DNA of 40,479 nucleotides from Bacteroidales bacterium. GTDB taxonomy: Bacteria; Bacteroidota; Bacteroidia; Bacteroidales; ML635J-15. The notes under the pieces are model-generated. The model saw nothing but the letters and a program-made list of their open reading frames with translations, was not told the DNA's origin and did not search any database. The stretch is from positions 118,502 to 158,980 of the forward strand of contig JAQVOJ010000001.1 of assembly GCA_028702675.1 (NCBI GenBank). Direction: 5' to 3'. The translations under genes and the position numbers were made by a program. The first letter of the stretch is position 1, and each line of letters begins with the position of its first letter. Below, in pieces: positions 31,372 through 34,709 of the stretch.

Positions 31372-32361
31372 CTATAATCCTAATTTTGCAGATATTTCTA
31401 ACATTTTACGAATGGGAAATTCTGCTCTCTTTCTTATTTTTTCATCAATTTCAATTTCCGGCAATTCATAAACTAAGCAATTATATAATTTTTCTAAAGT
31501 ATTAAGTTTCATAAAATTACAATCATTGCAAGCACATGTAGAATCTTTTGGAGGTGCGGGTATAAAATGCTTTTGTGGACTTTGCTTTTTCATTTGATGA
31601 ATTATACCTGATTCGGTTGCTACAATATATTCATTAGCATTATCTGTTTTAGAAAATTTCAAAATAGATGCTGTAGATCCAATATGATCAGCTACGAGTA
31701 GTACAGGTTTTTCACATTCGGGATGAGCTAAAATTTTGGCATTAGGATATTGTTTTTTTAGCTCCAAAATTGCTTCCAAACTAAATTCTTCGTGTACATG
31801 ACATGCACCATCCCACAAAACCATATTTCTGCCTGTTACAGAATTGATATAATTACCTAAGTTGCGATCAGGACCAAAAATCAATTTTTCATTTTTTTGA
31901 AAACTTTCTACTATATATTTTGCATTAGTTGAAGTTACCACTACATCGGTAAGAGCTTTAATAGCAGCACTTGTATTAACATAGCTTATTACTTTATAGC
32001 CTGGATGCTGTTTTATAAATTCCTCGAAAGCATCGGGAGGCACTGACTCGGCAAGTGAGCATCCTGCGTTCAAATCCGGTAAAAGAACTTTTTTATGTGG
32101 AGACAATATCTTAGCTGTTTCAGCCATAAAATGAACTCCTACAAAAACAATTATATCGGCTTTAGTTTCGGCAGCTAATTGCGACAATTTTAAACTATCA
32201 CCAACATAATCAGCTATATCTTGTAATTCAGAAACTGTATAAAAATGAGAAAGAATTACAGCATTTTTTTCTTTTTTAATTCTAAGTATTTCTTTTGAAA
32301 TATCAATATCTTTTGGTATTTCTTTTTCTAAATATCCTTTGCTTAAATTTTTTAAATCCAT
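31372..32361 (-). CDS. nadA: Quinolinate synthase
   Basis: Condenses iminoaspartate with dihydroxyacetone phosphate to quinolinate in de novo NAD synthesis; 329 residues, cytosolic, [4Fe-4S] enzyme. Cluster ligands are visible as Cys101 (DLNAGCSLAES), Cys187 (WDGACHVHEEF) and a cysteine of the CACNDCNFM segment near residue 280. Substrate motifs include ILSHFYTVSELQDIADYVGDSL, VTSTNAK and FGPDRNLGNYI. Length fits the compact NadA class. The partner genes nadB and nadC are not in the window. A possible promoter with minus-strand TAATTTTG lies about 105 bp upstream (32466-32473), with a short 16-bp spacer to a TTTG. Confidence 0.95.
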   Translation of the reverse strand: MDLKNLSKGYLEKEIPKDIDISKEILRIKKEKNAVILSHFYTVSELQDIADYVGDSLKLSQLAAETKADIIVFVGVHFMAETAKILSPHKKVLLPDLNAGCSLAESVPPDAFEEFIKQHPGYKVISYVNTSAAIKALTDVVVTSTNAKYIVESFQKNEKLIFGPDRNLGNYINSVTGRNMVLWDGACHVHEEFSLEAILELKKQYPNAKILAHPECEKPVLLVADHIGSTASILKFSKTDNANEYIVATESGIIHQMKKQSPQKHFIPAPPKDSTCACNDCNFMKLNTLEKLYNCLVYELPEIEIDEKIRKRAEFPIRKMLEISAKLGL

Positions 32362-32881
32362 TCATATTATATTTTAATATTATATTTATTATTTATTTAT
32401 TTTAAAAATAAAAGATGATAATAATATAGTGTTAAGAGCGGTATTTTTTTTTGTTTTATGTATTGCAAAATTAAAATATTAAAAACTATCAAACGAAATT
32501 AACAACTAAAAAATTTGAACAAAATTGAAAACTAATAACTTGTAATTTTAATTAACAATTGTTAAAAGTGGTATTAAAATAAAAGTTAACAAATTAAAAA
32601 CTAACCAAAATATTTAATTCATTGTTAATATTTGTGAATTATTATTGAAAGAAAAATCTTGTTTTGTTAGTTTAATTTTATAAGCAATAATTTAAACAAA
32701 AATGCAAGTATTATTTGTTATTATTTTTTCTATTAAATACACAGTAATATTAATAAACTGTTGAAATCTTATGTTATTGTTTAGCAACAGATTAGTATAA
32801 TTAATTGAATTAATAGGTTGATTTAATGAAAATTAACAGTTGTTAATAAAAATTATAATGTTATAATAAGCTGTATTTCAG
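32362..32881. other. AT-rich noncoding region with palindromes (520 bp)
   Basis: The longest gene-free stretch of the window. It contains a perfect 14-bp palindrome TTAACAATTGTTAA (32552-32565) and a near copy TTAACAGTTGTTAA (32833-32846). It also contains a 15-bp motif found twice, GTTAAGAGCGGTATT (32431-32445) and GTTAAAAGTGGTATT (32561-32575), the second overlapping the palindrome. Many loose GTTAA/TTAAC words fill the rest. No ORF or recognisable RNA is seen. It lies between the lipoprotein 3' end and the nadA start, so it should hold the nadA promoter. Confidence 0.6.
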
Positions 32882-33327
32882 TTAAAATAATTTAAATAAA
32901 TTTACAAGATCACTAGCTACCGAAATAGCTGATGAAGCAGTGCTTACAGTAGATGATGTAATTTCTGATAATTTATCCATATTTAGAATTTTTTCTACTA
33001 CATCCATTGCATTTTCAGAGGTTATTAAATTGTTTGATCCGGTAACTAAACCTGCTGCAAATGCTTTTTTGTAAGAACTGTCGTTTTGGTTTGCTTTAAG
33101 TGTTTTGTAATATCCTGCTAATTTTATTGTATTAGTAAGATTTTGTGTATTAGATAAATCAAATTTTCCTGCAGATTTATAATTTGAATGCATATCGGCT
33201 AATAATTCGCCACATGCAGTTCCTGTAGCATTTGCAGCTGTATTGCTTGAAGCTACATTAGAAAGTGTATTACAAGAAACAAAAGAAAAACTAATGACAC
33301 TAAAAATAGAGATTTTAATAATTTCAT
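32882..33327 (-). pseudogene. Small lipoprotein gene with a one-base frameshift in the signal peptide
   Basis: The minus-strand ATG ending at 33327 starts a lipoprotein-like signal (MKLLKSLFLVSLVFLL) but runs into a stop codon after 24 codons. The -1 frame, which lacks any ATG, reads FVSCNTLSNVASS with a good lipobox and stays open through GTACGELLADMHSNYKSAGKF to the end at 32882 (LVNLFKLF). Adding one T to the T4 run (33281-33284) or nearby T5 run (33286-33290) restores a 148-residue lipoprotein ending its signal with LVFLFVSC. The 446-nt span fits the loss of one base. The body has a pattern of Tyr/Lys/Asn helices and a Ser/Thr-rich tail, seen in small Bacteroidota lipoproteins of unknown role. 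The cause may be true decay, slippage-based switching or a sequencing error. Confidence 0.75.
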
Positions 33328-33359
33328 AATAATTTATTTTAAGTTTTATATATATTGTA

Positions 33360-34655
33360 TTAACTTATTTTAATAATAAAATATTGTTTTTTGCCTTTTT
33401 GAATAAGTAAATATTTATTATTAATTAAATAATTTTCGTTTATGATTCCATCTTTATCTGTATATTTTTCTTTATTAATACTGAGTCCGTTTCCTTGAAT
33501 AGTGCGGCGGAGTTCTCCTTTTGATGGAAAGATATTTGTATAATCGGTTAACAAATCAATAATTGGAATGCCATTTTTAAATAAGTTAAAATCTACATTA
33601 AATACTGGTACTCCTTCAAAAACAGAAAAAAACAATTTTTCATCGAGTTGTATTAATTCTGAATTAGTAGATTTTCCAAATAAAATTTTAGAAGCTTTTA
33701 CGGATTTTTGGTAAGCATCAGTAGAGTGCACCATGCATGTAATTTCTTCGGCAAGTTTGTTTTGTAATAAGCGTAAATGTGGTTCTTTATTATGTTTTTC
33801 GATAATATTGTAAATATATTTTTTGTCGAGAAGAGTAAAAATTTTAATATATTTTTCTGCTTCTTCATCAGAAGTATTTAACCAAAACTGATAAAATTTA
33901 TAAGCAGAGGTTCTATTTTCGTCTAGCCAAACATTTCCATCTTCTGTTTTACCAAACTTACTTCCATCTGCTTTTGTAATAAGTGGGCATGTTAATGCAT
34001 AAGCTTCTCCTTGTACTGTACGGCGAATAAGTTCGGTGCCTGTTGTTATATTTCCCCACTGGTCGCTTCCACCCATTTGTAGTTTACAATTATATTCTTT
34101 ATAAAGATGTAAAAAATCATATGCTTGCAAAAGTTGATAAGAAAATTCAGTAAATGACATTCCTGAACCGGTTTCTCCTGTAAGTCTCTTTTTTACAGAG
34201 TCTTTCGACATCATATAATTTACAGTAATATGTTTACCTACATCTCTAACAAAATCAAGAAAACCAAAATTTTTCATCCAGTCGTAATTATTTACAAGGA
34301 TAGCTTTATTTTTAGCTTTATCGTTAAAGTTTAGGAATTTACTGATTTGCTGTTTAATACATTTTTGATTGTGAAATAAAGTTTCTTCGTTAAGTAAGTT
34401 ACGTTCTTGAGATTTACCACTCGGATCACCAACCATACCGGTTGCTCCACCTAAAACTACTATAGGTTGATGTCCACATTCCTGAAGATGTTTTAACATC
34501 ATTAAGCTTACTAAATGACCAATATGTAAAGAGTCGGCAGTTGGGTCAATACCTACATAAGCACTGACTATTTTATCAGATTTAAATAAATTTTCGGTTT
34601 CGGGCATAATATCGTGAATCATACCTCTCCATTTTAATTCTTCAACAAAATTCAT
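33360..34655 (-). CDS. tyrS: Tyrosyl-tRNA synthetase
   Basis: Charges tRNA-Tyr; class I synthetase of 431 residues. The start at 34655 ([19 protein letters not shown]) is the standard TyrS beginning; the longer frame adds 17 hydrophobic residues from the spacer. The HIGH motif is DSLHIGHL (residues 41-48), and the KMSKS-equivalent is [14 protein letters not shown]. Other markers are [34 protein letters not shown] and [12 protein letters not shown]. The C-terminal S4 RNA-binding domain covers about residues 355-431 ([20 protein letters not shown]). It lies 54 bp after the M1 peptidase gene and 32 bp before the broken lipoprotein gene on the same strand, so co-transcription is likely. Confidence 0.97.
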
Positions 34656-34709
34656 AATATTAATATTTATAAAATTGAAATGAAAAAACTTTACAAAGAA
34701 ACACAAGTA

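Follow-up and report, generated by a model that had tools for sequence, protein, structure and literature searches.

A Bacteroidales lipoprotein gene with its signal peptide split over two reading frames

What is to be made of a lipoprotein gene in which the signal peptide begins in one reading frame while the lipobox and the rest of the protein lie in another? The question is raised by a gene on the minus strand of a 40,479-nucleotide stretch of DNA (the window) from a Bacteroidales bacterium (assembly GCA_028702675.1, contig JAQVOJ010000001.1, positions 118,502 to 158,980). An earlier interpretation of the window made from the letters alone, called here the sequence-only reading, described the two frames without giving the strand and proposed that the gene might be the off state of a phase-variable surface lipoprotein, a young pseudogene or an assembly error. 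In our view the chances are about even that the strain sampled really underwent a recent indel, be the result a young pseudogene or a strain polymorphism; an error in the consensus or the assembly is rated somewhat lower.

Frame 0 was said to begin a signal peptide and to halt early, and this is what we find. From the ATG at 33327-33325 it translates as MKLLKSLFLVSLVFLLFLVIHFLM and, the last sense codon ending at 33256, meets a TAG stop at 33255-33253. The description of the -1 frame, with the lipobox and a full protein body and with no start, was equally right. Around the lipobox this frame translates as ...YEIIKISIFSVISFSFVSCNTLSNVASSN..., in which FVSC is followed by NTLSN and the Cys codon is 33274-33272, and it stays open to 32885, where it ends in a natural stop. 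Of its 160 codons, 148 are counted from 33328, and among these there is no ATG, GTG or TTG before codon 46 (Met, ATG 33193), which lies inside the mature protein. The marks of a lipoprotein signal, which are a basic N-terminus, a hydrophobic core and the lipobox Cys, are thus distributed over two frames here, whereas a single frame holds them in 14 of 14 relatives.

These relatives come from a homologue search which took in 31 genomes of the same family and in which the genus of the window was represented by this genome alone. Thirteen genomes of this family and one genome of another family of the order proved to have a homologue. All of them start with ATG-MK and have one intact frame up to the lipobox Cys. 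The number of residues to this Cys is 19 in 12 of the 14, 20 and 21 in the other two, and joining both frames of the window also gives 19 residues. Because in the 14 homologues an ATG and this body share one frame, and 12 of them have a signal peptide of the very length obtained by the join, the comparison of sequences shows, beyond chance, that both frames belong to one gene. The nearest homologues are found in two metagenome-assembled Bacteroidota genomes, Bacteroidales bacterium SZUA-560 (G012, QKHS01000006.1) and Marinilabiliales bacterium BM703 (G029, PKTB01000020.1). Their lipoproteins share with the window protein 58-61% identity over the mature part, the lipobox V-S-C-N-T, the length and the occurrence in single copy; they differ from it in being encoded in an intact single frame from the ATG and in lying in another gene neighbourhood. 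The gene neighbours differ in both, so that the neighbourhood is not conserved with the two nearest relatives. When GTDB genomes were scanned, the protein alone as query gave no match, and an alignment of three sequences recovered only the two relatives already known. The coordinates are collected in Table 1.

Table 1. Features of the split lipoprotein gene (positions in the window)
Feature	Position	Strand	Basis or remark
24 sense codons of frame 0: ATG and hydrophobic beginning of the signal peptide (MKLLKSLFLVSLVF...)	33256..33327	-	Start matches the ATG-MK of 14 relatives
Open stretch of the -1 frame, 160 codons: lipobox FVSC and complete lipoprotein body	32885..33364	-	Homologous to 14 relatives; G+C content by codon position
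T5-C-T4 tract named in the sequence-only reading	33281..33290	-	One possible lesion site among several, unproven
Interval bounding the one-base frame loss	33277..33325	-	A plausible lipoprotein signal peptide of 19 residues results from every switch point inside it

Where in the signal peptide does the lesion lie? It had been proposed that one extra T in the T4 or T5 run joins the frames. The tract is indeed T5-C-T4 at the place given for it, and a one-base join there does yield a signal peptide of 19 residues; such a join is, however, not specific to the T-runs. We tested all switch points, passing from frame 0 into the -1 frame after each codon in turn and inspecting the resulting signal peptide. 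At about the first 17 points the outcome was a hydrophobic, Lys-started signal peptide of 19 residues with a good lipobox, except that at the first point the early Lys is missing. Upstream of the T-runs the -1 frame is hydrophobic in its own right. Since the signal peptides from almost all switch points are equally plausible, the lesion cannot be assigned to the T4 or T5 run; its site is anywhere from 33325 to about 33277, an interval which also contains a second T5 (33306-33302) and an A4 (33316-33313).

The state of the rest of the gene bears on the age of the lesion. No stop occurs in the 129 codons that follow the Cys codon, and the G+C content counted from the Cys is 0.36, 0.42 and 0.12 at codon positions 1, 2 and 3. 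Because the body is intact and its codon periodicity strong, the lesion is either young or not real. A simple neutral simulation puts the probability of finding no stop at 0.62 at 2.6% divergence, 0.40 at 5% and 0.16 at 10%. In a three-way comparison the branch of the window protein was 0.32 against 0.23 and 0.21 for two relatives, a modest excess, and since this branch is only moderately longer than those of its neighbours the sequences argue against a long period of decay. What is expected of a young pseudogene, that is an intact functional homologue, an inactivating lesion and little further decay, is all present. The proposal of a young pseudogene or an assembly error can accordingly be kept in both its parts, given the intact body and the 14 relatives in frame, although neither part is singled out.

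If the indel is genuine, the signal-peptide codons have lost one base net somewhere from 33325 to 33277, or have undergone a change with the same effect. A ribosome starting at the ATG at 33327 would then make a peptide of 24 residues and stop, and no exported lipoprotein would be formed; the reality of the base loss in the organism and the absence of the product are what we infer. The rival view is that the organism has an intact gene, from which the assembly dropped one base. In a survey of frameshifts, 823 predicted proteins encoded in 1.2 Mb of a genome of the same family (G008) were set against 953 kb of the present genome (3.09 Mb in total); none of the 153 matched genes, 60,814 aligned codons, had an internal frameshift. 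Those partial or stop-containing matches that were aligned residue by residue proved to be differences in length between homologues or matches to open reading frames on the wrong strand and not lesions, and no surveyed gene other than that of the window was without a start codon. Because no internal frameshift was seen in the 153 genes, indel errors are infrequent in this assembly, which counts against the loss of a base by error; the completeness of the genome, 98.9%, likewise counts for a real lesion. Runs of four to five bases are not known to be especially error-prone in short reads, which would speak against an error if the reads were short. Several points weigh against a genuine indel or in favour of an error. 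Finding none in 153 genes still allows an error rate of up to about one per 60 kb (95%), lesions in the first codons of a gene are poorly detected by this survey, and the genome is fragmented into 188 contigs, an assembly which also contains a broken sole glutamine synthetase. The lipoprotein body shows no damage and keeps its full codon periodicity, and none of the 14 relatives is out of frame. Singleton frameshifts validated by BLASTp are expected to be mostly sequencing errors (PMC3711429), and the frameshift in the window is such a homologue-validated singleton. Like the singleton frameshifted genes of GeneTack (PMC3711429) it occurs in one genome only, is confirmed by homologues, and has neither a conserved frameshift site nor a tandem repeat at the place; we found no difference between the window gene and these singletons. 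An error in the assembly is accordingly a serious possibility, to be given somewhat less than an even chance.

The phase-variation model postulates that the gene is in an off state and that slippage in the T4 or T5 run can restore it. It has in its favour that the frame break lies near the 5' end of the coding sequence, as in the known phase-variable genes with poly-A/T tracts (PMC2831843), and that a change of one base restores the frame. Tracts shorter than 6 bases are, however, held unlikely to allow frequent indels, 6 being the shortest tract known to the authors of that study to take part in phase switching (PMC2831843), and the longest run in the interval is a T5. Runs of A or T are common in the window (415 of at least 5 bases, 41 of at least 7), so that a T5 is unremarkable. 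The window gene further differs from the poly-A/T genes in that its tract is not conserved and its site is not fixed to the T-runs: none of the 14 homologues is off or shares the tract, and their longest run is an A5-A7 in 13 of them and a T3 in one, lying in the MKK codons or absent. There is no second copy of the gene in the genome. Nor is there support for a surface location. The export signal of surface lipoproteins in Bacteroidota (lipoprotein export signal, LES) is made up of acidic residues, K-(D/E)2 or SDDDD-like, that directly follow the Cys (PMC5080379); the window protein has NTLSN at this place and the relatives likewise are without the signal, so the epithet "surface" is not supported. 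On the present evidence, with short tracts, common A/T runs, no relative that is off or shares the tract, and a site that is not fixed, the off state by slippage is rejected as highly improbable. A further model is that there is no lesion and that translation begins at a rare non-ATG codon in the -1 frame, for example ATA 33337 or the ATT codons 33322 and 33319. The upstream part of this frame does resemble a signal peptide (IIKISIFSVISFSFVSC); it is open to 33364 and hydrophobic with a Lys ahead of the core, segments which AT-rich sequence readily yields. ATA and ATT starts are rare, all 14 relatives begin with ATG-MK where the window has an out-of-frame ATG AAA, and the spacing of 19 residues to the Cys is preserved only with the ATG at 33327; such a start is very unlikely. 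Programmed -1 ribosomal frameshifting or transcriptional slippage could also join the frames, -1 being the shift required and the UUU codon being able to re-pair one base back. Neither of the hallmarks of programmed -1 frameshifting, a conserved slippery heptamer and a stimulatory structure, is seen: the zero frame has no X XXY YYZ heptamer (GUU UUU CUU UUG), and the downstream structure is no better than that of shuffles (z = -0.67). No relative requires a shift, and the runs are short for slippage by the polymerase. We regard this as the least probable of the explanations. It is altogether improbable that the lipoprotein is still produced through an unusual start in the -1 frame or through slipping between the frames, the gene being functional in spite of its broken look. 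A scan of 32300-33500 against Rfam gave no match, and the Bacteroidota promoter motif TAnnTTTG is no more frequent than expected by chance, with none just upstream of the lipoprotein gene.

A second broken gene was observed in the same genome. The only glutamine synthetase gene found (PF00120; G000:C185:7595-8777, plus strand) is broken near its 5' end. In the 5' fragment codon 17 is a stop, and the catalytic part is preceded by a gap of about 107 codons; four relatives of the same family have the full 503 residues. This would fit a lineage with some recent gene damage as well as a local misassembly and does not decide between mutation and error. It should be noted that, as a core gene for which no second copy was found, it could itself be a misassembly, and this adds to the points which weigh against a genuine indel in the lipoprotein gene.

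The lipoprotein gene is flanked upstream by tyrS on the same strand (33360-34706) and downstream by nadA (31372-32361), a neighbourhood which gives no clue to function. The gene belongs to a small, lineage-restricted lipoprotein family of Bacteroidota. The precursor has about 149 residues and the mature part about 130, predicted to be all-helical. In the structure model the product of the -1 frame has a predicted helical domain at residues 28-145 (mean predicted local distance difference test score, pLDDT, 82) behind a short linker and the lipid anchor. Searches of the PDB by sequence and by predicted fold found no significant match (best fold E 0.28), and neither the window protein nor its family has a match in Pfam. 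NCBIfam gave no usable family for the protein either; weak matches to the PG1828 family lipoprotein were obtained for six of eight members (best E 0.0005) and may reflect the shared signal peptide. Invariant in the eight aligned members are the S-C of the lipobox, G36, G40, Y50-K51, G54-K55, K78, K88, G93 and G97.

A frameshifted lipoprotein gene is an ordinary finding and by itself of little weight. The locus does carry a warning for the interpretation of similar ones. In an AT-rich signal peptide nearly every point of switching between the frames leads to a good signal peptide; the join therefore does not identify a homopolymer, and a neat one-base join of this kind should not be read as a slippage switch. 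It also draws attention to an uncharacterised family of predicted all-helical lipoproteins which, among the genomes searched, is confined to a few genera of Bacteroidota, mainly of one family.
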